Both the position numbers and the translations under genes were made by a program. A stretch of 21,877 nucleotides of DNA from a virus: the IMG/VR virus record IMGVR_UViG_3300025131_000491, positions 1 through 21,877 of that record; one strand, given 5' to 3'. Shown here in pieces: positions 1 to 17,687 of this stretch; the first letter of the stretch is position 1; each line of letters begins with the position of its first letter. The notes under the pieces were generated by a model. It worked only from the letters and a program-made list of their open reading frames with translations, had not been told where the DNA came from and searched no databases.

Positions 1-216
1 GGATCGATACCCCTCCGCCATTTTATTTTTAAATTGAACCCGTGTGAAACCCGAGGCCAGCCCAACGCAAGAGATGCCGGGCGCTGACCTGCGGTTTTAA
101 TAACCTCGCCCTGCTGTGCGTGAACGAAAATCTAAGAGCGGACCCCCCCCTACCCCCCAAAAACCGCCCGCCAGCTCTTATAGCGTATATATCAAAAAGG
201 AACCTTCGGAGACACT
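1..216. other. Non-coding leader upstream of terminase
   Basis: I see no convincing complete gene here. Forward frames are closed by stops within the first 90 bases, so at most the last few codons of an upstream gene (often the small terminase subunit in such phages) could lie at the left edge; nothing identifies it. The notable content is a C-rich stretch (C8 at 143-150, C6 at 153-158, then A-rich) and an AT-rich segment at about 178-196 just before the terminase ribosome binding site. A promoter could sit there, but no standard -35/-10 pair is clear. Confidence 0.5.
133..180 (+). repeat. Inverted repeat enclosing C-rich tract
   Basis: TAAGAGC at 133-139 is the exact reverse complement of GCTCTTA at 174-180, a 7-bp stem. 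The 34-nt loop holds the C8-T-A-C6 tract. There is no T-tract after it, so it is not a classical intrinsic terminator. It may be an mRNA structure, a processing site or part of a packaging or transcription signal ahead of the terminase gene; nothing in the sequence decides between these. Confidence 0.4.
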
Positions 217-1503
217 GTGACTGAGATCCAGATCCCTTACACGCCGCGGCCGCTGCAGGCGGAGCTTCACCAGCAGCTCGAGGCTCACAGGTGGTCTGTA
301 GTGGTTTGCCATCGTCGCTGGGGCAAGACGGTCTGTCTGCTTAATCATCTACTGAGAGCGGCTGTGCAGTGTGGCAAGAAGAGTCCGCGTTATCATTATT
401 TGACGGCTTCTTATCGCATGGCCAAGCAGGTTGCTTGGGATTACATGCATCAATTTGCCGAGGGCATTCCTGGGGTTAAGTTTAACGAGACTGAGCTGCG
501 CTGTGATTTGCCTAATGGCGCGCGCATCCAGCTGCTTGGAGGTGAAGACGAATCCAGGCTGAGAGGCATGTATTCTGACGGCATTGTCATTGATGAAATG
601 GGCATCATGTCGGAGACCATATTTACTGAGGTCATCAGGCCTATGTTGGTTGATCGGCCGGGCAGCTGGTGTTGTATGATTGGCACGCCGCAGGGGCATA
701 ATTTATTTTATGATTACTGGCAGGCTGCTGCTGATGATCCTGAGTGGTATCGGGTCATGTATAAAGCTTCGGAGACGGGAATTATCCCGCAAAAGGAATT
801 AGACGCGGCACGGGCAAGTATGAATGAGGATGCTTACCGCCAGGAATTTTTATGTAGTTTCGAGGCGGCTGTGCCGGGCGCGGTATTTGGCAAGGAGCTG
901 CAGAAAGTTGATGAAGCTGGGCGGATTTGCAAGGTGCCTTATGACCCGACTTTGCGGGTCGATACTCATTTTGATTTGGGTGTTAATGATGCGACCAGCG
1001 TGATTTTCACCCAATCGGCAGGTCGAGCGTTACACGTTATAGATTATTTTGAAGCACGGAACGAGGGCCTGCCTTTTTATGCGAGGATGCTTGATGAAAA
1101 AGGTTATCTCTATGGTCGTCACCATGCTCCGCACGATATTGAGGTGCGTGAAATGGGTAGCGGCAAAAGCCGCCGAGAAATTGCGTGGGATTTGGGCATC
1201 AATTTTGAAGTGGTGCCGAAACTTCCGATAGAAGACGGCATCCATGCGGCCAAGATGCTTTTGGCCAAGGCCTGGTTTGACAAGGAGAAATGCGACCAGC
1301 TGCTCGAGGCGCTGCGATTCTATCACCGGGTTTACGATCCCAAGAATAGAATGTTCCGGTCGAGGGTAAAACACGACTGGTCATCCCATGCTGCAGACTG
1401 CTGGCGCTATTGTGCCCTTGCACAGCGGGACACGCCGAATAACGGTGTGCCACCGCAGATGATTGCGGAGAGCGCCTACAATCCACTGGAGAACAGAATA
1501 TGA
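217..1503 (+). CDS. Terminase large subunit (TerL)
   Basis: ATP-driven DNA-packaging motor and headful or site nuclease, which docks on the portal. The 428-residue protein has an N-terminal ATPase: a Walker A-like RRWGKT at residues 33-38 and a Walker B with catalytic acid, GIVIDE, at 122-127. The C-terminal RNase H-like nuclease shows the expected spaced acidic residues: D253 in HFDLG, D307 in APHD, and D394 in SHAADCW. The start is GTG at 217, preceded by CGGAG at a suitable distance; no ATG fits the N-terminus. It is the first gene of the late block and overlaps the next gene by ATGA. At 428 residues it is shorter than T7 gp19 (about 586) but normal for many other phage terminases. The family is certain; the packaging mode cannot be read from sequence. 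Confidence 0.95.
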   Translation: MTEIQIPYTPRPLQAELHQQLEAHRWSVVVCHRRWGKTVCLLNHLLRAAVQCGKKSPRYHYLTASYRMAKQVAWDYMHQFAEGIPGVKFNETELRCDLPNGARIQLLGGEDESRLRGMYSDGIVIDEMGIMSETIFTEVIRPMLVDRPGSWCCMIGTPQGHNLFYDYWQAAADDPEWYRVMYKASETGIIPQKELDAARASMNEDAYRQEFLCSFEAAVPGAVFGKELQKVDEAGRICKVPYDPTLRVDTHFDLGVNDATSVIFTQSAGRALHVIDYFEARNEGLPFYARMLDEKGYLYGRHHAPHDIEVREMGSGKSRREIAWDLGINFEVVPKLPIEDGIHAAKMLLAKAWFDKEKCDQLLEALRFYHRVYDPKNRMFRSRVKHDWSSHAADCWRYCALAQRDTPNNGVPPQMIAESAYNPLENRI

Positions 1504-1724
1504 GTTTTTTGTCACCTAAAGCGCCACCACCGCCGCCGCCAGTGCCGCCGCCGCCACCAGCTCCCCCGGTCAATCCAATTCCGGCGGAAGGGACAAGGTC
1601 GGCCAAGGAGCGGGATCGCATCAGACGCAAGCGCGGCGTCAGCTCAACGATTTTGACCGGCCCTCGCGGCCTATTGCCAGAACAGATGCCGGTGACGGCA
1701 CCAACCTTGCTGGGTGGAGGCTGA
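1500..1724 (+). CDS. Small proline-rich virion-type protein
   Basis: This is a 74-residue protein with an N-terminal MSFLSPK followed by an almost pure proline run (about residues 9-23), a basic middle (RIRRKR near 40-45), and a C-terminal STILTGPRGLL segment ending in TLLGGG. Small phage proteins with a polyproline start and a TILTG...TLLGG end commonly sit beside terminase and portal genes; I recall the pattern but have not run a search. The position also resembles that of the T7 gp6.7-type small virion protein. It starts inside the TerL stop (ATGA), so it is probably translationally coupled, with GGAG upstream. The function is unknown; a minor virion role is inferred. Confidence 0.75.
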   Translation: MSFLSPKAPPPPPPVPPPPPAPPVNPIPAEGTRSAKERDRIRRKRGVSSTILTGPRGLLPEQMPVTAPTLLGGG

Positions 1725-1725
1725 T

Positions 1726-2544
1726 ATGAGCTTTGGCGGCAGTGCTGAAGGCAGCGATTACGACACCGGCCAAGGTACAGTCACTCTGGGCAAGACAGAG
1801 CCGACGGTGCCCGCTCGACGGACGCTTGACCCAGTAACGCCCGGTGATGACCCGGAGGCTAAGTGGGAGTTCACGGAAGTGCCAGGCTACACTCAGCCAG
1901 CCGAGCAGAAACAAACCGGCGGCCGGAGCGACCCACACCTGGCGGTCGGTAGATCCGACGCGGCGAGAGAACTCTATACCCGTAGATTTCATCCAGATTC
2001 GCCGACTTATGCTGGCCGCACTCCGACGGCAGGGGAAGCGGCTAAGTTCCATATGTGGGATGCGCCGACACCGGGTGAAACTTTTTTAAAGACACTGGCC
2101 GGAATACTGATTCCCGGCGGCAGCCTGATCACGGGGTTTGGCACCGCGGTTAATATTGCCAAAGACGTTATGGACGATCGTGACGCAGTGTGGCGTTCGG
2201 TAGGCATTCGTGATCGGAACCGCACGCTCGACGAACACGGGCGAGATCCAGAGACCGGCCGCTGGGACACCACATTTATGAGTGGTGATGATGACAGGTA
2301 CGACAAATGGGCCGACCCAACTCCTCCCAAGAAGCGGATCTTGCGGAAGCAGCCGGGCGGCCAGGCGAAAGCCGTTCAAGCCCGCTCGGCAAGTGCAACT
2401 GGGACCGGCGGGGTCACACGGGTCGGCGGAACGACAACGGCGGCCGCCGCAGGCAGTGCCGCCGCCGCGAGAAGCAAAGGCCCGACGATGGCGGCGCTGC
2501 TCGAAACGGTGCCGACAACCACTAAGAATTTACTGGGGGCATAG
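1726..2544 (+). CDS. Hypothetical protein, probable minor virion protein
   Basis: About 272 residues, not recognised with confidence. The start is ATG at 1726: GGTGGAGG at 1713-1720 is a near-ideal ribosome binding site for it, whereas an in-frame GTG at 1714 lies inside that site. The first 110 residues are Gly/Pro/charge-rich and probably disordered. A hydrophobic, glycine-containing stretch (TFLKTLAGILIPGGSLITGF, roughly residues 120-140) could be a membrane-active or buried helix. The middle is Asp/Arg-rich and the tail is Ala/Gly/Thr-rich, ending in NLLGA, reminiscent of the TLLGGG end of the preceding gene. The stop codon abuts the portal ATG. Placement suggests a virion-associated role, but this is inference only. 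Confidence 0.7.
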   Translation: MSFGGSAEGSDYDTGQGTVTLGKTEPTVPARRTLDPVTPGDDPEAKWEFTEVPGYTQPAEQKQTGGRSDPHLAVGRSDAARELYTRRFHPDSPTYAGRTPTAGEAAKFHMWDAPTPGETFLKTLAGILIPGGSLITGFGTAVNIAKDVMDDRDAVWRSVGIRDRNRTLDEHGRDPETGRWDTTFMSGDDDRYDKWADPTPPKKRILRKQPGGQAKAVQARSASATGTGGVTRVGGTTTAAAAGSAAAARSKGPTMAALLETVPTTTKNLLGA

Positions 2545-4263
2545 ATGCCAGCAGATGAAAAAGCGGTCGTTCTTCTCAGACGGCTAACCCAACTGGAAGA
2601 ACGGCGCTCGACCTGGGAAGTGCATTGGCAGGAAGTCGCCGATTATATGCGGCCGCGCAAAGCCGACATCACCAAGCAGCGCACCGAGGGACAGAAACGC
2701 ACCGAGCTGATCTTCGACGGCACCGCCATCCATGCGGCCGAGATGCTGTCGGCCAGCCTGCACGGTATGCTCACCAACATGGCGACACCCTGGTTTACGC
2801 TTCGATATACTGACCCGATATTGGAAGACGACGACGTTGCCAAGGAATGGCTGGAAGCCGCCGAAAATACCATGTACCAGGCTTTCCAGCGATCCAACTT
2901 CCAAGAACAAGTCCATGAAATGTACGATGATTTGGTGTGCTTCGGCACCGCCATCATGTTTGTCGAGAAAGACCCGGTCACCAGCTATCGGTTTTCCACC
3001 CGGCACATTGCCGAATGTTTCCTCGGCGAGGACGAGCAGGGCCGTGTCGATACGGTCTTTCGCAAGTTTAAGATGTCGGCTCGCGCGGCGATCGCTCAGT
3101 TCGGCGAGAAGATCAGCGACCGCATCAAGCGTGAAGACGAACGCGATCCCTACAAGATGGTCGAACTGGTGCATGTGGTTCTGCCGAGGGACGATCGCGA
3201 CGTTACCAAGAAAAGCAAACAGAACAAACCTTGGGCCTCGATCTATATCGATTCCGAAGAGAAGGTCGTCCTCGGCGAGTCGGGCTACGACGAGATGCCC
3301 TATGTGGTGCCGCGTTGGCTGAAGGCCTCGACGGAAACACTGGGCTTCGGCCATTCCTGCGCGATGGCGTGTTTGGCCGACGTCAAGATGCTCAACAAAA
3401 TGAGCGAGATTACCATCAGGGCGGCGCAGAAGCAGATCGACCCGCCGCTGATGCTCCCAGACGACGGCTTTATGCTGCCGATCAGAACAGTGCCTGGCGG
3501 GCTGAACTTTTATCGGTCAGGCACCAGGGACCGCATCGAACCGCTGAACATCGGGGCCAACCAGCCCCTCGGCCTGCAGATGGAAGACCAGCGACGGCAG
3601 GCGATCAGATCGGCTTTTTACGTCGACCAGCTGATCCTGTCGCAGAACCAGACGATGACGGCCACCGAGGTCATCCAGCGCACCGAAGAAAAAATGAGAC
3701 TGCTCGGCCCGGTGCTGGGCAGATTGCAGGCAGAGTTTCTGCAGCCCCTGATCGAACGGTGTTTTCAGATCCTGTCGCGGGCCAGGAAGCTGCCCGCCGC
3801 GCCGGAATTTATGAACGGCTTCGATATCGAGATCGAGTATGTATCACCGATCGCCAAGGCCCAGCGCAGCGGCGATGTGCAGTCTATTGTTCGGATGTTG
3901 GAAATGCTCGGCCCGCTGCAGTCGCTGGAGCCCGGCATCATCGACTGGATCGATATGGACGGTCTGGCGAAACACGCAATTAAGGTGCTGGGCATACCCG
4001 CTACCGTAGTCCGCGGCGGCGAAGAAGTGCAGATGATGCGCCAGGAACGCCAGATGCAGATGCAGATGCAAGAACAGAAACAAGACGCCCTGGCAACCGC
4101 GCAAGCGGCCGGGCAGGCCGCTCCGGCAATCAAGGCCGTGCAGGAAGGCATGGCGGTGCCGGAAGGTGAACCGCCGCCAGGTGCTGAGATCATACCGCCG
4201 CCGGGTGCTGAGATCATACCGCCGCCAGGTGCTGAGATCATACCGGGACCGGGCGCGGCATGA
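2545..4263 (+). CDS. Portal (head-tail connector) protein
   Basis: A 572-residue homologue of the T7 gp8 head-tail connector family. It forms the dodecameric ring at one capsid vertex through which DNA is packaged and ejected, and to which tail tubular A binds. Family-typical features include an N-terminal RLTQLEERRSTWEVHWQEV helix, a YMRPRKADI-like segment, LSASLHGMLTNMATPWF near residues 67-83, and the DQLILSQNQTMTATEV segment near residue 360. Length is close to T7 gp8 (about 536). The C-terminus is unusual: a Met/Gln-rich helix (MRQERQMQMQMQEQKQ) is followed by three exact 8-residue repeats PPPGAEII. It is followed with a 4-base overlap by the Bbp19-like gene. The start ATG directly abuts the previous stop. 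Confidence 0.95.
   Translation: MPADEKAVVLLRRLTQLEERRSTWEVHWQEVADYMRPRKADITKQRTEGQKRTELIFDGTAIHAAEMLSASLHGMLTNMATPWFTLRYTDPILEDDDVAKEWLEAAENTMYQAFQRSNFQEQVHEMYDDLVCFGTAIMFVEKDPVTSYRFSTRHIAECFLGEDEQGRVDTVFRKFKMSARAAIAQFGEKISDRIKREDERDPYKMVELVHVVLPRDDRDVTKKSKQNKPWASIYIDSEEKVVLGESGYDEMPYVVPRWLKASTETLGFGHSCAMACLADVKMLNKMSEITIRAAQKQIDPPLMLPDDGFMLPIRTVPGGLNFYRSGTRDRIEPLNIGANQPLGLQMEDQRRQAIRSAFYVDQLILSQNQTMTATEVIQRTEEKMRLLGPVLGRLQAEFLQPLIERCFQILSRARKLPAAPEFMNGFDIEIEYVSPIAKAQRSGDVQSIVRMLEMLGPLQSLEPGIIDWIDMDGLAKHAIKVLGIPATVVRGGEEVQMMRQERQMQMQMQEQKQDALATAQAAGQAAPAIKAVQEGMAVPEGEPPPGAEIIPPPGAEIIPPPGAEIIPGPGAA
4171..4242 (+). repeat. Three 24-bp tandem repeats in portal C-terminus
   Basis: Units at 4171-4194, 4195-4218 and 4219-4242 are identical except for one silent A/G change in the middle unit, and each encodes PPPGAEII. 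Near-identity at DNA level points to recent slippage or recombination. The peptide is likely a flexible tail at the portal C-terminus. Confidence 0.95.
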
Positions 4264-4472
4264 CCCCTGAAGATTTACGCTCAGCCTATAAATTTATTCT
4301 CGAAAGCAACGATGGCGAAGTGATCATGGAAGACCTCGAACTGAGGTTCCATATCCATGCCCCGGTGTTTTCAAATGACCCTCACGAAACCGCGTTCCGC
4401 GACGGCCAACGGAGTGTGGTGCTGTTCATGCAGAACATGATTAAGGACCGGCCGCCAATCAAAGAGGAGTAA
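4260..4472 (+). CDS. Bbp19-like small phage protein
   Basis: A 70-residue protein matching the general pattern of the Bbp19-type phage family: an N-terminal helix (LRSAYKFILESNDGEVIMEDL), a central histidine-containing FHIH segment, then DPHETAFRDGQRSVVLFMQNMI. The DPH-x-T-A-x-x-x-G-x-R core is the part I recognise. The function of the family is unknown to me. It is encoded between portal and scaffold, overlapping the portal stop by ATGA, so it is likely coupled to portal translation. It ends with AAAGAGGAG, which doubles as the ribosome binding site of the scaffold gene. Confidence 0.8.
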   Translation: MTPEDLRSAYKFILESNDGEVIMEDLELRFHIHAPVFSNDPHETAFRDGQRSVVLFMQNMIKDRPPIKEE

Positions 4473-4478
4473 ATCACA

Positions 4479-5339
4479 GTGGAAGAGCAGGTAGCGGATG
4501 TCTCGGGCGAGCCCGAGGGAGCACCGTCTGCAACAATTTTAGCAGACACCGAAACATTAACGGACGGCGACTGGCGCGACCAGCTGCCCGATGATCTCAG
4601 GGATCACCAATCGTTACAAAATATTACAGACGTTGGAGCCCTGGCCAAAACAATGATCCACGCCCAGTCGATGGTCGGCGCTGAGAAGATCCCGGTGCCC
4701 GGCAAGTGGGCATCCGATGACGACTGGAACCAGGTCTATCAAAAGCTGGGCAGGCCCGACGAGGCCGACGGCTACGAGTTCGACTTCGGCGACCAGCCGC
4801 TGGATGACGACTTTGTAAACAACTTTAGATCGACGGCCCATGACGCCGGTCTCAGCGCCCGCCAGGCGCAGAAGCTGGTTGCCTGGTACACCGACATCGC
4901 CAGAGAGCATGGCGGCGGCAGTGAAGAAGAGATCCAACATGCCGTCGAAGCCGCCAAGACCGCCGCCGAGACAGAACTTAAAAAGGAATACGGCAACGCT
5001 CTCAAGGACCGGCTGGAGATGGGCGACAATCTCTTAAACGAGTTCGGTGCCGAAGGCATTATGGAACTGACGCTGGCCGACGGCACGCCGCTGGTCAACA
5101 ACCCGGCATTCATCAAAACAGTGGTTGCCGCCGCGCATTGGATCAATGAAAGCGTCAGCGAAGACAAATTGATTGGCGACAAGGGCAGCACTGCAATGAC
5201 ACCGGCCGAAGCCGATCAGAAGATCGCCGAGCTGATGCGGCCGGACGGCCCCTATTGGGATGCGCGTCATCCGCAGCACCAAAGCTATGTCGATCAAGTT
5301 CTGGAGATGCAGAAGCAAAAGCATCCAGAAGAAGAATAA
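4479..5339 (+). CDS. Capsid assembly scaffolding protein
   Basis: A 286-residue acidic, helix-rich protein directly upstream of the capsid gene, the standard place for scaffold. The N-terminus is disordered and acidic; then come WRDQLPDDLRDHQSLQNITDVGALAKTMI-type residues (about 32-60), a VPGKWASDDDW segment, YEFDFGD, and a long charged helical region (residues 120-190). The C-terminus contains IAELMRPDGPYWDARHPQH, a segment typical of these scaffolds, followed by a final basic/acidic helix likely to contact the capsid protein. The start is GTG at 4479, with AGGAG ending about 10 bases upstream. It directs procapsid assembly and is expected to leave before or during packaging. Family assignment rests on pattern and position. 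Confidence 0.88.
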   Translation: MEEQVADVSGEPEGAPSATILADTETLTDGDWRDQLPDDLRDHQSLQNITDVGALAKTMIHAQSMVGAEKIPVPGKWASDDDWNQVYQKLGRPDEADGYEFDFGDQPLDDDFVNNFRSTAHDAGLSARQAQKLVAWYTDIAREHGGGSEEEIQHAVEAAKTAAETELKKEYGNALKDRLEMGDNLLNEFGAEGIMELTLADGTPLVNNPAFIKTVVAAAHWINESVSEDKLIGDKGSTAMTPAEADQKIAELMRPDGPYWDARHPQHQSYVDQVLEMQKQKHPEEE

Positions 5340-5505
5340 CCAATTCACGCGGGCAGCCGCCTGATAAGCCGCAAGGCCCAGGCACGCGCTTGCATGATGA
5401 CAAGTCGGGATAAGCGCGTTCGCGCCCCTGCAACCCCAAACCCAGAGTCCGTTGCAATTTTGCGGGTAGCTCGTTTTTTTCAACTTGCTACTGAGAGGTC
5501 AGTAA
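5340..5505 (+). promoter_or_regulatory. Structured leader of the capsid gene
   Basis: This 166-base gap precedes the intron-split capsid gene. It can form a hairpin between CGCGCTT (5385-5391) and AAGCGCG (5412-5418), a perfect 7-bp stem with a 20-nt loop that also contains CTTG/CAAG. Further on, GTAGC and GCTAC flank a T7 tract just before the ribosome binding site GAGAGG. I see no conserved bacterial promoter. The region could carry a phage promoter, an mRNA processing site or a translation-tuning leader for the most abundant virion protein; this is inferred from position only. Confidence 0.4.
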
Positions 5506-6755
5506 ATGAGTACACAAGTAACTACTGCCTTTTCACAGATGTTTTCAACCAATGTCCAGCTGCTTTCACAGCAGAAGGGCAGCTTGTTGAGGTCGTCTGT
5601 AAGTGAGGAAGCTGTGACGGGCGAGAAAGCGTTTTTCGACCAGGTAGACTAACCTGCCTAGCTGGATGGCGACACCCAGCTGAAAACTTGTCAAATTCGG
5701 GGAAGGCTTAACTGCTAATCCCGAGCGAAGCTCCGCAAGGAGAACGTGTAGAGACTTGACGGCAAGCATCTCTAGCAGATGAAGAGAAAGTCCAGCGCAC
5801 AAAGCCTGCAAAGGTGGCGGCGAAAGCCGTAGTGTGATGAGGATCAGCAACCGCACAGAAAAGGACGTCACGACACGCGGATACCCCGCTGTCTGACACA
5901 CCTCACTCTCGTAGAATGGTTACAATGGATTCGTATGAATATGCGGATTTGATCGATGATCCGGACAAGGTCCAGATGCTTATCGATCCAACGTCCAGTT
6001 ATGCAAACGCAGCTGCGTATGCAATCGGGCGTGCCGTTGACGATTCGATCATCTCGGCTGCGCTGGGAACAGCGTCCACCGGGAAATCGGGTAGTACATC
6101 TACGAGCAACTCCAACAGCGTGGGCGTCGGTTCTCCGGCGGCTGGGTTGACAATTGCTAAACTTGTTGAAGCCCGCAAGGTCTTCGACAACGGCAGCGTC
6201 GATCCATCGATACCCAAATTCATCGCGGTCGGACCTGAACAGATCGAAGATCTGCTCAACAACACCACGGTGACAAGTGCAGATTACAACTCGGTAAATT
6301 CTTTGCCTATCTAGGTGGCAACATCTAGACGAAACCTCATCAAATTCGGGGAAGCCTGTAAAATGGTAATCCCGAGCCAAGCCCTGCAAAGGGAAGGTGT
6401 AGAGACTAGACGGTGAGCATCCCAAGCGGATGAAGGGATAGTCCAGACCACAAACGGAGACATCCGGCAGCGAAAGCTGTAGCTGGTATGAAAGGCACTT
6501 GTACAAGGTGAGATCGACACGTTCCTGGGCTTCAAGTTCATTACCTCGACCCGGCTGGAAACCGACGGCAGCTCCTATCGCAAAGTCATTGCATGGGCGC
6601 AAGACGGTATCAAGCTGGCGATGGGCCGTGACCTGATGTCTAAAATCGAACCTCGCGCAGATAAATCGTACAGCACGCAAGTCTATGTATGTGCCACCTT
6701 TGGTGCCACTCGCATGGAGGAAGCGAAGGTGTGCGAGATACTCTGTTCAGAATAG
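5506..6755 (+). CDS. Major capsid protein, three exons split by two introns
   Basis: Coding parts are 5506-5645, 5840-6295 and 6491-6755, which join to 861 nt encoding 286 residues plus TAG. Exon 1 encodes MSTQVTTAFSQMF through AFFDQV. Exon 2 encodes GSATAQKRTSRHADTP, then DSYEYADLIDDPDKVQMLID and the core to SADYNSV. Exon 3 continues KALVQGEIDTFLGFKFI to the end. These junction sequences read like uninterrupted capsid proteins of podophages with T7-like tails; an HK97 fold is expected for the family. The start ATG 5506 has GAGAGG upstream. Both junctions split a Val codon after base 2. Read unspliced, exon 1 stops at TAA 5650-5652 and exon 2 stops at TAG 6312-6314, so splicing is required. 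Scaffold lies upstream, a decoration-like gene downstream. Confidence 0.94.
5646..5839 (+). ncRNA. Group I intron 1 in capsid gene (Azoarcus-like)
   Basis: A 194-nt self-splicing intron. P1 pairs exon AGGU (5642-5645) plus AG with CU plus GCCU (5656-5659), giving the obligatory U5645-G5656 wobble. P10 pairs 3' exon AGG (5840-5842) with CCU (5653-5655). P2 is 5660-5668/5673-5681, capped by GCGA, with one A-C mismatch. P3 is CUUG 5687-5690/CAAG 5763-5766. P4 is 5697-5702/5719-5724. P5 is GGC 5705-5707/GCU 5714-5716. P6 is CUCC/GGAG with a GCAA loop (5731-5742). P7 is GACUU 5753-5757/AAGUC 5788-5792. P8 is CAUCU 5767-5771/AGAUG 5777-5781. P9 is CGGC-GAAA-GCCG 5818-5829. It ends in the expected G (5839). 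The core GTGTAGAGACT...GACGG matches the Azoarcus tRNA-Ile intron as I recall it. No endonuclease gene is present. Confidence 0.95.
6296..6490 (+). ncRNA. Group I intron 2 in capsid gene (Azoarcus-like)
   Basis: A 195-nt self-splicing intron related to intron 1. P1 pairs exon GGU (6293-6295) plus AAA with UUU plus GCC (6305-6307), giving wobble U6295-G6305 around a UUC loop. P10 pairs 3' exon AAAG (6491-6494) with CUUU (6301-6304). P2 is 6310-6317/6322-6329 with a GCAA loop. P3 is CUCA 6336-6339/UGAG 6414-6417. P4 is 6346-6351/6370-6375. P5 is GCC 6354-6356/GGU 6365-6367. P6 is CCCU/AGGG with a GCAA loop (6382-6393). P7 is GACUA 6404-6408/UAGUC 6439-6443. P8 is CAUCC 6418-6422/GGAUG 6428-6432. 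P9 is CAGC-GAAA-GCUG 6468-6479. It ends in G (6490). P2, P3, P6, P7, P8 and P9 all differ from intron 1 while keeping pairing. No open reading frame is inside. Confidence 0.95.
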
Positions 6756-6770
6756 GAAAGGAGAAGCTAA

Positions 6771-7283
6771 ATGACTACTAAAAATAGCACACTCGTTTCC
6801 AATTGGATTGCGAGTCCACAAGTCCTTAGTCCAAGCTATCAGCTGCACGGCGTTACGCGGACTGCACAAGGCACGATCGAGCTGGCAACGTCTGATATCG
6901 ACGATAATGATGTCATTCATTTGATGCCGATCGCGGTCGGTGCGTCGATAACGTCGATTAAGCTGGCAGCTGACGATATGGACTCAGGCGGTTCTCCGAC
7001 TTTGACCTTCAATGTTGGCCTGTACACTACGGCCAGCACTCCTGTGGTCAAAGACGAGGATTGTTACTCCACCGCGATCACGCTCGGCCAGGCTGCTACA
7101 GCCTTCACCGAGTATGCGTTCGAGGTGCGTAACATCAACGTCTGTGGCCAGCGCGTCTGGGAAGATGCGGGCGAAACCACTGATCCGGGCGGGCAGTATT
7201 ATCTGTCCCTCACGGTCCAGGCAGCAGCTGATACAGCTGTGGCTGGGGATCTCTCGTTTATCGTCCAGTACGTTGTTGACTAA
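6771..7283 (+). CDS. Probable capsid decoration / conserved virion protein
   Basis: A 170-residue protein directly after the capsid gene, with AAAGGAG as ribosome binding site. It begins MTTKNSTLVSNW and contains SLT/SIK-type beta strands: GTIELATSDIDDNDVIHLMPI, ITSIKLAADDMDSGG, TFNVGLYTT, a conserved-looking RVWEDAGETTDPGG, and a C-terminal FIVQYVVD. Proteins of this size and style commonly follow the capsid gene in related podophages. A head decoration or capsid-surface role is inferred from position and the beta-rich pattern, not from a solved homologue. No signal peptide or membrane segment is seen. Transcription may be attenuated just after it by the hairpin at 7298-7322. Confidence 0.72.
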   Translation: MTTKNSTLVSNWIASPQVLSPSYQLHGVTRTAQGTIELATSDIDDNDVIHLMPIAVGASITSIKLAADDMDSGGSPTLTFNVGLYTTASTPVVKDEDCYSTAITLGQAATAFTEYAFEVRNINVCGQRVWEDAGETTDPGGQYYLSLTVQAAADTAVAGDLSFIVQYVVD

Positions 7284-11976: not shown

Positions 11977-13965
11977 ATGCAAGTACCGACATATAAAAAC
12001 CAGACAAAACTGCCCAAACAAACTGGGGCCAGCCCGCTCACCGTGCAGGCCAGTCCTGCTCAATACTCCCAAGGCAGTGAGGCCATCTATCAGGCGACCC
12101 AGAAAGCCGTGACGGCGGCGACGGCGTTCGCAGTGCAATTGCAAAAGTCCGATCGAGCTGCCGAGGAAGCTCGCCAGAAAGGCCTCATGGGGAATGTTCT
12201 TGATGTAACGCTGAAATCGGTGATGAAGCGGAAAGTTGGCGATTGGGTAGATAGGACAGGCAAACCTTACGAAACATACAGCGATTGGTATGAAGATCTT
12301 AGCAGTGGTTTAAAATACAAGAAACGACGGGCCTTGGCGGGCATCACCGACAAGATTGTCCGCGCTCGGGTTGCAGCAGACTGGGACACGGGCATCGCGG
12401 CCTCTCTGAACCAGGCGAGGGCTATTTTCCGCCCGAGGTGGATCGATAGTAAAAAGGCGTTGATCAAAGGAGATGTCTTAAAAACGGTCCAAAACATCGC
12501 GCTGATGCCAGCCAATAACCCTGCAGAGCGAAACGCCAAAGAAGATGCGATTACCAGACTACACGACAAGCTGGACGAACAAGCCAGTCACTTTGTTAAT
12601 CTTGGCGATACTTTTTTCTCAAAGACGAAAAAGGAACTTGGGAACGACATCGCCGAGCGGGCCATTCAGCCGCACATCGCCGCTATCAGGACATCCGCCG
12701 ACGCCGAGGCCTGGAAGAGAAGACTGACTGAACCGAACTACGAGGGCACATGGTCAAACGACATCAAGCGTTTAAGCGGCGATACAGTGACGAAACTGCT
12801 CACCAGGCTCGAGCGCATTGATGCTCGATTAAAAAATGCCGAGGATAATAAAGCGCATCGAGAGATGGTGCAACACAGCACAAAAAAGAAGATCCAGGGA
12901 ACAGACCTTTTTAATAAGACATCTAGGGAGATTCAAATATATCGAAATTTAATTGCCGCTGGCAAAGAGCCCGACACCGACGGCGTCATTACCGATGACG
13001 CCGGGAATCAGTATAAGATGCCCGCGGCTGTGGATATCGACATGTTGATAACTTCAGACGGGTATTCGATGACCGGGGCGCAAACGGCACAGCTACACAA
13101 AATGCTGGCTGGCAACGACGCGGTCTACAACAAGCGTGAGGTGCTGCGCTACACTGCCCAGATCTACGAGGCCGTCACCGACGATGATCTCGATGTGATT
13201 GAGGAGGATGTCAATCAGTCTGCCATTAAAAATTATATCGGCGGCAAGGCGCAGGATCAGCTGCTGACGAAAATAGAAACCGCGCGGGCGAAGACGCCGG
13301 AAATCCAGGAAATTAAGCGGTTTAGGAACACTCTTAGCGAAGTTATGAAAGCTCATAAACTGAATGTCGAAGACTACTCTGCACAGTCTGAAGCGGATGA
13401 AAAGTCAGAAAGCGACACTTACATTCCGGCGGCGCTGATGAAGTTCGACAATCAGATCGAAAACGGTATACGGCCAGCTACTGCATTCTGGCAGACGTTG
13501 AGCAAGCTGCATCAGCGCAAGGAGACTATTGTTAAAACCTTCATCAGTACGTTGCCCGAATTGGGCATACCGCAAGTGGCAACCGATGACCCGAAGCAAC
13601 ACCTGACAACCGAGATGATTGACACGGCGATAGAAATCCTAAAAGAAGCCGCCGCTGCCGACGGCAGCATCTCCTGGAAAGTCTACTCAGACGAGGGTGA
13701 TGCGTTTAGTCAAAAGGATCTTGGCGAAGCCCAGCGCAGACGGCCAACAAAAGGCCCGCCGCTGACGAAAAAGGAACGGCTTTCGATCCGCCGAATTTAT
13801 GCGACTGAGCAGAAACTTAAATATATCAGAACCTACGCGGAGATCCCGATCGGGCAACGGAACGTGCCGGGCGAACCTGACAAGTCCGGTTCCGATCGAG
13901 ACGAAACACAACACAAAGCCCCGTTCGATAAGGTTCTTAAATGGTTCAAAGGGGTCATCGAATAA
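11977..13965 (+). CDS. Internal virion protein C-like (T7 gp15)
   Basis: A 662-residue protein, largely alpha-helical and charged, in the T7 gp15 position (T7 gp15 about 747). The gp15 family forms part of the internal core and, after ejection, the periplasmic tube of the DNA ejectosome. The N-terminus is extended (MQVPTYKNQTKLPKQTG) then helical (SEAIYQATQKAVTAATAFAVQLQKSDRAAEEARQ). Further charged helices with Ala/Lys/Glu continue to the end, with a disordered acidic/basic tail. No enzymatic motif is seen. The start ATG 11977 lacks a strong Shine-Dalgarno and may be reached by re-initiation from the upstream stop 7 bases away. It shares one base with the next gene (TAATG). Confidence 0.8.
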   Translation: MQVPTYKNQTKLPKQTGASPLTVQASPAQYSQGSEAIYQATQKAVTAATAFAVQLQKSDRAAEEARQKGLMGNVLDVTLKSVMKRKVGDWVDRTGKPYETYSDWYEDLSSGLKYKKRRALAGITDKIVRARVAADWDTGIAASLNQARAIFRPRWIDSKKALIKGDVLKTVQNIALMPANNPAERNAKEDAITRLHDKLDEQASHFVNLGDTFFSKTKKELGNDIAERAIQPHIAAIRTSADAEAWKRRLTEPNYEGTWSNDIKRLSGDTVTKLLTRLERIDARLKNAEDNKAHREMVQHSTKKKIQGTDLFNKTSREIQIYRNLIAAGKEPDTDGVITDDAGNQYKMPAAVDIDMLITSDGYSMTGAQTAQLHKMLAGNDAVYNKREVLRYTAQIYEAVTDDDLDVIEEDVNQSAIKNYIGGKAQDQLLTKIETARAKTPEIQEIKRFRNTLSEVMKAHKLNVEDYSAQSEADEKSESDTYIPAALMKFDNQIENGIRPATAFWQTLSKLHQRKETIVKTFISTLPELGIPQVATDDPKQHLTTEMIDTAIEILKEAAAADGSISWKVYSDEGDAFSQKDLGEAQRRRPTKGPPLTKKERLSIRRIYATEQKLKYIRTYAEIPIGQRNVPGEPDKSGSDRDETQHKAPFDKVLKWFKGVIE

Positions 13966-16900
13966 TGGCTGAAACACAAACTAACAGCCTACTCCCTGTA
14001 CCTGGCGCAGGCGAACGGCGGGCTGGGCCTGGAGACACGAAACACATCGATGTGACTTTTGATGTGGACAAGGCTGCTGACACTCAACTCAAGACCCCGG
14101 CCGCCCCGCCCGAGGTGACGCCGGTAGTAGAAACTGCCGAGCCGGTCAAACCTGCCGAGCCAGTCGAACCTGCCGAGCCGGTCAAAGTCAAGACCCCGGC
14201 CGACGACCCAGGAGGTCACTGGTCGTCGAAACCAGTATCCTCCACTGCAGTCGATGAGCTGCGGCGGCTTCGTGATTTCTTCGTCGACGACAAAGACCCA
14301 CTTGATCGTGCCATTGAAGCTGAGAACAAAAAGCTGGTGGAGCAGAGCGACACCTACAAAGCCGTGGAAGATGGCGGCTCTGACTTCTGGTATGCGATGG
14401 CTTCCAACAAGCCACCTGCCGACGATATCGATATGGAAAAAGTGGTGCTGGACCCCACTACACCGATGGGCGATGCCACCTTTAAGGGCTCTCGAATCCT
14501 CGCCGATCATTTTTGGGTGCCATCTGTGGATGACGTACTCGACCCGAATATCGATAAGGCTAGGTTGGACGACAAAGATGTAGCGCAATTCGGCATAGAA
14601 ATGCTGGGCTATGCGAATTGGAATACTATGTTTGCCGGGTTTCTATTTGCTCAAAATGAGATGGGCAAACTGCCGCCGCCAGTGCAAATAGCTTTGGCGG
14701 GTATGCAAGACATCTACACGAATGAGCTGCCTTTTTTCAGCTGGTCGGGCGGGAAAAGAATGCTGAAGGGGATGATTTCCGATCCATCGGCATGGTTTGG
14801 TTTGGCGTCACTGCACTTTGTAAAGGGTTTATTGGCGGGCGGGTCAAAGACGGCTGCTTCAAATCTTTTACGCAATGCCTTTTTGAGCAAGCTGCTGGGA
14901 TCGTCTTTCGTCGGTGTTGAGGGCGCTGGCTATGCGGTGATGTACGACTTTTTTATGCAGAAAAGGGAGCATGGTGCCAACCCCGGCGTGCCCTTTAAAT
15001 ACAATAAAGCGCGGGGTCTTATAGCTGCTGGTGCCGGTTTCGGGTTTGGCAGTGGCATTACAATGGGTGTAGCTCATTTGCCCCAAGCAGGGCAGGCAAT
15101 TCAAAAGGGAGCCCGAGCGGTAAATAAGACCTATCAAAAGGTGGTCGATGATGGAGGGCTATCGGCTGGACTTAGTATCAAGAATGTTGGCCTGGATGCA
15201 GACGAAATTATGAGTGTCATTTCCGACCACGGGACGAATGTTCTGGAAACGGAATTTACTAAAACGGGCGTGTCTGCCGTGAAGGTCGTATCGCGATATG
15301 GCAACGACAAGAAGGTTAGAAAAACCTTCCGGCCTGGAGTGACAAAGGATGAGGTTGTTGCTTGGCTGGAAGATACGGCGTACAGGCCAAAGGTTAAGAA
15401 GGATGCCACACTGGCTGAAGCACAGGCCGACACAAGAAAACAGGCCGACATTGTGGCCGAGCGTTTGAATGTTCTGGTCCCAGTGGAAACCCGTATTGCC
15501 GGAGGCGGCAAATATAAACCAGGCCAGCCTAACAGCGGTAAGCCTTGGTCGGATTTGACTGAAACACAACTTGCCGAGCCTGGGCCAGGTTTTAAGGGCA
15601 CTGATAATGATCTAAGCAAGATGCTCGACGATGCGATTTCCAACAGCTCGGCGGCGGCACAAGACTCTGCTCAAAAAACAGGAATGAATATAACCCTCAC
15701 AGCTGCTGATTTTGACAAGGCTTTGAAGTTACCGAAAAGTGCCCAGCTGTGGTACGAACTGGGCGGTGAAGGTCTGAGAAATAAAATACCAATACTGAAA
15801 ACCGACAAGCTATTTAGTTTGGTTAATGATGTGCTTGGGGTTACGTCACCCCTGACTAAGCCGCTTGATAATCTGAAGCGCACCCTTGCAACCTTGTCGC
15901 AGCATTTGCGAAAGGAGCCTATGGATGTCGATATTGTTAATCCTGCCGGTGTCCAAGAAGCGTTGGCTAGATCCGCGAGCGGGAAGATCTCAGCAGTTGC
16001 GTCCGGCAATAAGACGGGGAACTTTTCTGATACTCTGTCAATGGTTGGGGGGGCTAATGTGCCACCGCCAATCCCAGTTAATGACGTTTGGGTAGGTAAG
16101 TTGTTTGGTCTTACGGAAGAACAACTGATGAATAACCAGAGCCTTCACGAACCGATGGCGCTGTTCTTTAATGCACTGCGTGATCATGTAAATAAAACAT
16201 CTGGTAAGGCGCTCCCACATGAGAGCTGGCAGATTCAGTCACGGACATGGGTCAGCGAGCGCGGTGCCCAGGATGACTATGCACAAGCTTTGAGTACTAT
16301 AGTGAGCGAGCTACGCGGGTCTGGTATCCCTGGCATTACTAAAGATGGAAAGATAACAGAACAGGCATTAAAGCATCCTGACTTTGCAGCAGCCCTTAGA
16401 CCAACGATGGAGGGGTTTAGAAAAGCTGCTGTGGCAACGGTTGAGGTTGGTACAAAGCAGACGGCGGCAGGCCGCGAAGCAGCTGCATCGGTTGTTGAAT
16501 TACGGAAGATGAAAAACAACCCACAAGCTGTGAAACTGCTCGATGATTATACTGGGATTCATACAAGTGCTCTTTACCATGCTACGCGCGGACCTGGGAA
16601 TATGTTCGACAGGGTCTACCAGGCTGTATTGGGTTTGCCAGCTGGAGCCAGGATAACCAGAATTTCCAGGCCGAATAAGGACCGCCCTTTTGATGTTGCG
16701 GGATCGTTTAACGGAGTTTTCAGTCCGAATGTACGCATACCGTTGCGGGACATGTCCGATGATCAGGTGGCCATCTTCAACGCCATCGCCGGAGCTGGAC
16801 TGCGCCAGGACGCGATGGCATCGAGCCGAATCGCAACAGTCTCCAGTTCAGCGCCAGTTGTTGCGGGCAAAACACGCGGCCAATCCGTATTTATAGAGAC

Positions 16901-17687
16901 GTCAGAAACCATCGACGGCAAAATTATCCAGGACTTCCTCAAACGGTTGCCCAAAGGATTTGACATAAGTACGGATCGCGTAGCCAACGGCTACCTTATA
17001 GATATCAACCCGAAGTTCACTAATGCGGGGCCGAAAGGGATTACTGATAAACAACTCGGGCCCGCGTTTCAGATGCTCCATGCCAAGAAATTAAGCCCCA
17101 AACGGTTGCGTCACGATCATTCCAGCGTATATAATGAGGCCAGCGAATTTGCTGCATTAGAAACGAAATTTAGACAGGAGTTGAAAGATGGCGTCATCAA
17201 AGAACTCGGGGAAAAGCTCGGTTGGACAGAAGCCCGCGCCCGAAGATACATTGACGGGCGAGGAATTGGTAAGGCTACACACGCTCAGCGATCAAGAGCT
17301 AAAACGGCTAGGTCTCGATACCAGAGACGACTTGGTGATCTCGACGCAGCAGCGCAAGCCAGCCGCGAGGTAAGCGAGTCAGTAAATATTGGTTACACCC
17401 TCTGGAATGAGAAGGCCAGGAAGGTACTGCCAGAGCATATTACTTCAGCGGCCATTCGGTTGCCAGACGGCACGATCGTTGAAGGGACTACCCACGGGGT
17501 AGCAATTAACAAAGCACGGGAAGGCGGTCTGCTTAATGATTGGCCAGAAGCGGGCCTTAATCCTTGGGAGTTCCAGGATGCTGGAGGGCATTTAGACCTA
17601 TTCAAGACTTCATCTGGTCGAGTGATTGATAGATTTGAGGCAAATAAAAAATTCGGCATTAGTGCTGCAGAAGACGTAAAACCCTGA
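13965..17687 (+). CDS. Internal virion protein D-like (T7 gp16 position)
   Basis: A roughly 1240-residue giant virion protein. The start is ATG 13965 (MAETQTNSL), preceded by AAAGGGG; an in-frame ATG at 13941 lies inside the upstream gene and is less likely. N-terminal residues include a proline/glutamate repeat (VETAEPVKPAEPVEPAEPVK, near 50-70). Residues about 260-380 are rich in Gly/Ala hydrophobic segments (FGLASLHFVKGLLAGG; LIAAGAGFGFGSGI) that could be membrane-active on ejection. I see no lytic transglycosylase motif of the kind found at the N-terminus of T7 gp16, so the role is assigned from order and size. A second frame is open across 17188-17373. The gene is followed by a good intrinsic terminator. 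Confidence 0.75.
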   Translation: MAETQTNSLLPVPGAGERRAGPGDTKHIDVTFDVDKAADTQLKTPAAPPEVTPVVETAEPVKPAEPVEPAEPVKVKTPADDPGGHWSSKPVSSTAVDELRRLRDFFVDDKDPLDRAIEAENKKLVEQSDTYKAVEDGGSDFWYAMASNKPPADDIDMEKVVLDPTTPMGDATFKGSRILADHFWVPSVDDVLDPNIDKARLDDKDVAQFGIEMLGYANWNTMFAGFLFAQNEMGKLPPPVQIALAGMQDIYTNELPFFSWSGGKRMLKGMISDPSAWFGLASLHFVKGLLAGGSKTAASNLLRNAFLSKLLGSSFVGVEGAGYAVMYDFFMQKREHGANPGVPFKYNKARGLIAAGAGFGFGSGITMGVAHLPQAGQAIQKGARAVNKTYQKVVDDGGLSAGLSIKNVGLDADEIMSVISDHGTNVLETEFTKTGVSAVKVVSRYGNDKKVRKTFRPGVTKDEVVAWLEDTAYRPKVKKDATLAEAQADTRKQADIVAERLNVLVPVETRIAGGGKYKPGQPNSGKPWSDLTETQLAEPGPGFKGTDNDLSKMLDDAISNSSAAAQDSAQKTGMNITLTAADFDKALKLPKSAQLWYELGGEGLRNKIPILKTDKLFSLVNDVLGVTSPLTKPLDNLKRTLATLSQHLRKEPMDVDIVNPAGVQEALARSASGKISAVASGNKTGNFSDTLSMVGGANVPPPIPVNDVWVGKLFGLTEEQLMNNQSLHEPMALFFNALRDHVNKTSGKALPHESWQIQSRTWVSERGAQDDYAQALSTIVSELRGSGIPGITKDGKITEQALKHPDFAAALRPTMEGFRKAAVATVEVGTKQTAAGREAAASVVELRKMKNNPQAVKLLDDYTGIHTSALYHATRGPGNMFDRVYQAVLGLPAGARITRISRPNKDRPFDVAGSFNGVFSPNVRIPLRDMSDDQVAIFNAIAGAGLRQDAMASSRIATVSSSAPVVAGKTRGQSVFIETSETIDGKIIQDFLKRLPKGFDISTDRVANGYLIDINPKFTNAGPKGITDKQLGPAFQMLHAKKLSPKRLRHDHSSVYNEASEFAALETKFRQELKDGVIKELGEKLGWTEARARRYIDGRGIGKATHAQRSRAKTARSRYQRRLGDLDAAAQASREVSESVNIGYTLWNEKARKVLPEHITSAAIRLPDGTIVEGTTHGVAINKAREGGLLNDWPEAGLNPWEFQDAGGHLDLFKTSSGRVIDRFEANKKFGISAAEDVKP
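17188..17373 (+). CDS. Candidate nested small gene inside gp16-like gene
   Basis: A 61-residue frame in the +1 phase of the large gene. AGGAG at 17176-17180 lies 7 bases before ATG 17188, an ideal ribosome binding site. The product carries a normal-looking helix-forming segment, TLTGEELVRLHTLSDQELKR, followed by LGLDTRDDLV, reminiscent of the L-S-D-x-E-L-x-x-I/L-G-L pattern of DUF1127-like small proteins. By eye, its third codon positions are more GC-rich than those of the host frame over the same bases. It may be a real overlapping gene or a chance open frame; the evidence is limited. Confidence 0.3.
   Translation: MASSKNSGKSSVGQKPAPEDTLTGEELVRLHTLSDQELKRLGLDTRDDLVISTQQRKPAAR

Follow-up and report, generated by a model that had tools for sequence, protein, structure and literature searches.

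The main result of this analysis is the recurrence of group I introns in the major capsid genes of environmental phages. The DNA under study, referred to below as the window, is the 21,877-base virus record IMGVR_UViG_3300025131_000491, which is one fragment of a genome. Its major capsid gene, at positions 5506-6755, consists of three exons with two group I introns between them. Our reading, to which we assign a probability of roughly 0.93, is that this gene carries two compact, endonuclease-free introns which would remove themselves to give the mRNA of a 286-residue major capsid protein, and that such introns have been gained and lost repeatedly.

The interrupted capsid gene and its introns

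The window contains a podovirus gene set of terminase, connector, capsid and tail genes, as recognized by Pfam and PHROG profile matches, and the virus is an HTVC010P-like, pelagiphage-like podovirus. On the plus strand, which also holds the capsid gene, the genes for the terminase large subunit (217-1503; PF03237 and phrog_2) and for the head-tail connector or portal (2545-4263; PF12236, 1.5e-151) are both uninterrupted. A probable scaffold gene, so named from its position upstream of the capsid gene, lies at 4479-5339 (phrog_3742 and phrog_458), and the motif GAGAGG at 5493-5498, 8 nt 5' of the capsid ATG, reads as a likely ribosome-binding site. Three late ORFs (6771-7283, 11977-13965 and 13941-17687) gave no Pfam match, and the first two of them gave no PHROG match either.

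The exons were delimited by the spliced translation and its match to PF19821. Exon 1 (5506-5645, 140 nt) opens with the ATG and ends in CAGGU, exon 2 (5840-6295, 456 nt) ends in CUCGGU, and exon 3 (6491-6755, 265 nt) includes the stop codon. With both inserts taken out, the 861 nt encode 286 amino acids plus the stop and contain no internal stop; retaining either insert brings immediate stops into the capsid frame. The spliced protein matches PF19821 (Phage_capsid_2) over its full length (290.8 bits, 1.4e-86, profile positions 1-293 of 293) as well as the major head protein family phrog_3437. The initial annotation had proposed precisely these exon and intron boundaries and lengths, which proved exact, and had claimed that joining the exons restores a capsid protein. 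The profile match bears this out, as does an intronless relative (L001, 93% identical) whose capsid gene runs colinearly and without a break across both exon junctions, so that it presents the two empty sites. The comparison with phage capsids suggested at that time gave 62.6-64.7% identity to the capsid proteins of the pelagiphages HTVC010P, HTVC034P and HTVC035P. The dN/dS ratio, calculated against L120 and L001, is 0.05-0.09 in each of the three exons, a sign of purifying selection as expected for a protein that is translated from joined exons.

Intron 1 (5646-5839, 194 nt) and intron 2 (6296-6490, 195 nt) are both of the type that we call class A, and neither contains an ORF; their identification rests on covariation and on the Rfam model RF00028, whose gathering cut-off is 50 bits. 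The covariance search advised in the initial annotation succeeded fully for intron 2 (64.4 bits over 6286-6467), but it left intron 1 slightly below the cut-off (47.4 bits over 5636-5804, E 1.3e-10 in the stretch searched). Intron 1 aligns with 49 relatives that share the conserved core. The P7 helix, placed by our alignment A2 and by pair counts, joins 5753-5757 (GACTT) with 5788-5792 (AAGTC) in intron 1, where the last pair covaries between U-A and A-U, and 6404-6408 (GACTA) with 6439-6443 (TAGTC) in intron 2.

For 50 distinct introns we scored P2, P3, P4, P5, P6, P6a, P7 (which crosses P3), P8, P9 and the last hairpin. Of all core base-pair cells, 98.0% are paired, compared with 78.4% after shuffling, and two-sided changes occur at 32 of the 48 core pairs, so the earlier claim that all core helices can be paired holds for compensatory change as well. 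The covariation score is 0.515; shuffling lowers it to 0.144, and slid partners give no more than 0.059, the latter control being biased in favor of the structure since this was drawn from intron 2 of the window; the two-sided changes, unlike that control, do not depend on the choice of reference structure. In a near-identical phage (L109), P2 of intron 2 has changed on both sides with its pairing intact. Free folding of the 3' part was uninformative for intron 1 (z -0.5) and of modest value for intron 2 (z -2.0), and it is of little use here because P3 and P7 cannot form together in it. A search for group II introns by domain V gave no match in the window at the gathering score, nor up to an E of 1 within 5480-6780. 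P5 consists of 3 bp and a short loop with no P5abc extension, as in the IC3 subgroup, and a tree of the core intermixes capsid and tRNA introns, although its forks are weak. The family of the window introns appears to be closely akin to the IC3-type tRNA-gene introns, and the conserved core leads us to infer that both are self-splicing.

The splice sites are set by short pairings of an internal guide. In intron 1 the guide (5653-5659) pairs CCU with 5840-5842 as P10 and GCCU with 5642-5645 as P1, with the wobble U5645.G5656; in intron 2 the guide (6300-6307) pairs UCUUU with 6491-6495 as P10 and GCC with 6293-6295 as P1, with the wobble U6295.G6305. Both introns therefore have the P1 with a U-G wobble and the P10 that the initial annotation had assigned to them. 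P1 is of 3-4 bp, with exon GGU paired to intron GCC and the U.G at the cut, and P10 is of 3-5 bp, with the bases immediately 5' of the wobble G paired to the start of the next exon. Both also end in G. Among the relatives, the U before the intron and the G at its end were conditions of the search; P10 was not, and it is paired at 54 of 64 positions (16 distinct guide/exon combinations). When the exons were permuted, 38.7 +/- 2.9 positions paired, and 54 was reached in none of 20,000 permutations, hence P10 follows the local exon sequence. As for the choice of donor in the relatives, GGT was preferred where there were several candidates, and most introns had just one. At the position of intron 2, after about residue 199 of the capsid protein (site 199), GGT is found in all 24 distinct intron-bearing contexts and in 28 of 105 intronless alleles, counts that are uncorrected for kinship. 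The intronless sister L001 has AAT and TGT in place of GGT at the exon ends (3115-3165 and 3571-3621 of its own sequence), which could reflect either a target requirement or a co-converted exon. A P1 of only 3-4 bp means that splicing may need folding independent of translation, or host proteins.

Recurrence, gain and loss among environmental phages

A gene-blind pattern made from the intron core was run on IMG/VR and returned 112 class A stretches, many of them near-copies, from which the 50 distinct introns were kept. The hosts of these 112 loci are 87 major capsid genes from three Pfam families, 24 tRNA genes (23 recognized by ARAGORN and one, L085, by eye) and one other gene, so that major capsid genes make up 87 of the 88 protein-coding hosts. 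The capsid gene is of the PF19821 family at 85 loci, T7-like (PF21703) at L155 and SU10-type at L173. Within the PF19821 gene, class A introns sit at no fewer than five sites, after residues about 47/48, 52, 65, 199 and 205, and class A introns of capsid genes as a whole are 188-210 nt long with a median of 195. The sole class A intron in a non-capsid protein gene (L153, about 2515-2561, minus strand) lies in a small, unnamed and possibly structural gene.

A second type of intron, class B, is 220-266 nt long and has a different core; it occupies about ten further sites of the PF19821 gene and has also entered genes of other capsid families. The gene-blind scan for its core gave at least 120 stretches, from which 95 downstream ORFs were searched with profiles. 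At least 26 of these matched SU10_MCP and at least 9 PF19821, with P22 coat, Phage_capsid_3, Phage_capsid_4 and PF05065 as further capsid families that overlap in part; non-capsid matches were to DNA_pol_A (at least 8), DNA_pol_B (at least 4), sheath (at least 2) and some endonucleases. A single capsid gene can hold up to four introns. An SU10-type gene at 148-1763 (minus strand) of L391 has four Rfam group I matches of 78.6-91.9 bits within 1.6 kb, and the SU10-type gene of L173 (425-1439, minus strand) has three group I introns in the order class B, A, B. At L090 (3933-4426), two group I matches are separated by 71 nt, and a very short capsid exon, just a few codons long, seems to sit between the two introns.

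To put a figure on the frequency, a sample chosen independently of introns is more suitable. Among the best 80 matches to exon 3, some of them near-copies, 69 hold the whole gene; 21 of these 69 (about 30%) have one insert or more and 10 have two. In a mixed set, 66 of 158 distinct capsid proteins have introns, and 20 of the 158 have two or three; the initial annotation had regarded two introns in one capsid gene as unusual, a view that these counts show to be overstated. Among the matches listed, none of the isolates with a PF19821 capsid has an interrupted capsid gene. On the capsid tree, intron presence at site 199 changes 17 times, and at least 9 of these changes are forced by well-supported branches.

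The intron trees add to this picture. In the full-length tree, intron 1 is nearest to introns at sites 47/48 of other phages and intron 2 to those at site 199, and grouping the two window introns together is rejected (p-AU 1e-50). The site 199 introns do not form one clade (p 0.018). In the shorter core tree, a well-supported set of 21 spans four or more PF19821 sites together with the SU10-type and T7-like capsids. The trees fit introns that stay at one site for long periods and jump occasionally.

Cultured and sequenced phages also carry such introns. In Pelagibacter phage HTVC120P (L313, MH598807.1; Autographiviridae, host Candidatus Pelagibacter HTCC7211) the capsid gene, in the region 3825-4999, is already annotated as two "capsid protein" ORFs, gp29 and gp30, and a 197-nt class A intron separates them; taking out the 197 nt gives the join ATFPV-MGRTVAAYHTPG. 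This intron has no Rfam match at E up to 0.01, yet it aligns with the class A family. The capsid region of the deep-sea Chosvirus contig KT997847.1 (L314) gives two Rfam group I matches (78 and 77 bits), corresponding to introns at 3990-4170 and 4699-4879, and its third exon is unannotated. Neither of the two records annotates an intron.

Relation to known introns

The small size of the window introns had been put forward as remarkable by comparison with the Azoarcus intron, which is 205 nt long. At 194 and 195 nt they are indeed shorter, but related introns of tRNA genes reach down to 185 nt, and size was rejected as the chief point. Of the bacterial loci retrieved with the class A core, ARAGORN placed at least 66 in tRNA genes, with introns of 185-277 nt except for one of 413. 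The IC3-type tRNA-gene introns of bacteria and phages share the same core motifs, whereas their host is the anticodon loop of a tRNA and not a protein-coding gene. The Jug phages likewise have small introns, averaging about 206 nt, with metatranscriptome reads backing the splicing of 37 of 76 (PMC12363816); their genomes, however, are of 360-402 kb, and their introns are in terL, nrdD and other genes with no capsid pattern reported.

Capsid-gene introns as such are already known. The mycobacteriophage LittleE (Cluster J) has a probable group I intron in its major capsid gene, also with U before it and G at its end, and its splicing was demonstrated by RT-PCR and protein sequencing (PMC3706429). 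It differs in its length of 819 bp, its endonuclease frame, its single site and the HK97-type capsid of a siphovirus. A capsid intron of the lactococcal phage Tuc2009 is cited in the same paper. In crAss-like phages of the Delta and Zeta groups, the capsid gene is among the core genes that hold group I introns, and one capsid gene comes in five pieces (PMC7886860); to this extent the rarity claimed at the outset was overstated. Those introns, unlike ours, were recognized chiefly through their endonuclease domains, and they occur in large genomes and in many host genes. A phage gene with several group I introns is also known from Staphylococcus phage Twort (Landthaler and Shub 1999, as cited in PMC6669764), though in a different gene, host and intron lineage. 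The excerpts of PMC6487183, PMC10580990, PMC8541194 and PMC6669764 contain no report of pelagiphage capsid introns, and full-text searches of the openly searchable papers for group I introns of pelagiphages, introns of HTVC120P or capsid-gene introns linked to SAR11 turned up no report. Against the searchable literature, what appears to be new is that introns without endonuclease genes occupy capsid genes at several sites, both in relatives of pelagiphages and in other families of capsid genes.

Persistence and spread

According to the reading we prefer, the capsid gene would be transcribed together with both introns, each of which would fold into the standard core, with P1 and P10 holding the exons; guanosine would start two transesterifications, after which the intron leaves and the mRNA of the 286-residue protein remains. 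Splicing in the cell would presumably take this course. Gain and loss of this family has recurred at a number of GGU positions in the PF19821 gene, and the family has entered other capsid families as well. Its spread is probably selfish, through co-conversion when phages infect the same cell, possibly aided by a trans-acting endonuclease, or through reverse splicing. Residence in an essential gene may help the introns to persist since only exact removal would be tolerated there.

Other explanations have to be weighed against this one. The inserts could be dead relics in a degenerate capsid gene that has been replaced elsewhere, and the record, being a fragment of a genome, leaves room for a second capsid gene. 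We regard this as very improbable given the strong purifying selection on the exons, the intact core with compensatory changes in dozens of lineages, and the GGT bias at site 199. It is even harder to accept that one window intron is a recent within-gene duplicate of the other; the two do align over their length and have the core motifs in common, but the nearest kin of each are the introns that other phages carry at the corresponding site, and duplication was rejected together with their joint grouping. A role in regulation, in which splicing would couple capsid translation to GTP, Mg2+ or growth state, seems unlikely, even though the introns recur in a highly expressed late gene of several capsid families and growth-state control has been proposed for T4 introns (judging from a title cited in PMC8541194). 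Close relatives do well without the introns, whose distribution is patchy, the insertion sites differ, and no conserved extra element was seen beyond the core.

A more serious contender, with a chance a little short of even, is that the spread relies on a homing endonuclease acting in trans, or on one recently lost from the introns. Endonuclease families are present among the class B flanks, and two phage tRNA-gene introns (L145 and L089, about 670-695 nt) have, by eye, an HNH-like frame 5' of the core. On the other side, an endonuclease ORF is found neither inside the window introns nor in any of the 50 distinct relatives, and no long form was seen at the class A sites of PF19821 capsid genes. 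Endonuclease families were likewise absent from the tested window ORFs and from the 62 tested ORFs that flank seven intron-bearing loci, a search over incomplete genome fragments with the top 25 PHROG families listed. A more speculative and rather doubtful proposal is that these IC3-like, endonuclease-free introns reverse-splice into the most abundant late mRNA, moving between sites and families under the sole guidance of a 3-bp P1 and P10, and that among the protein-coding genes of small environmental phages the capsid gene has thereby become their main refuge.

The preferred reading, of recurrent self-removing introns, has practical consequences, as HTVC010P-like pelagiphages have been described as abundant worldwide (PMC6487183). 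If about one third of the nearest relatives are interrupted, ORF callers and marker-gene surveys would mis-split or miss the capsid gene. It also raises the question of how endonuclease-free introns move so often, and why into several capsid families, which becomes testable with HTVC120P, a cultured phage that has such an intron. The phage tRNA-gene intron of L085 has an HNH-like reading frame before its core too, and together with L145 and L089 it is possibly a full-length mobile relative.
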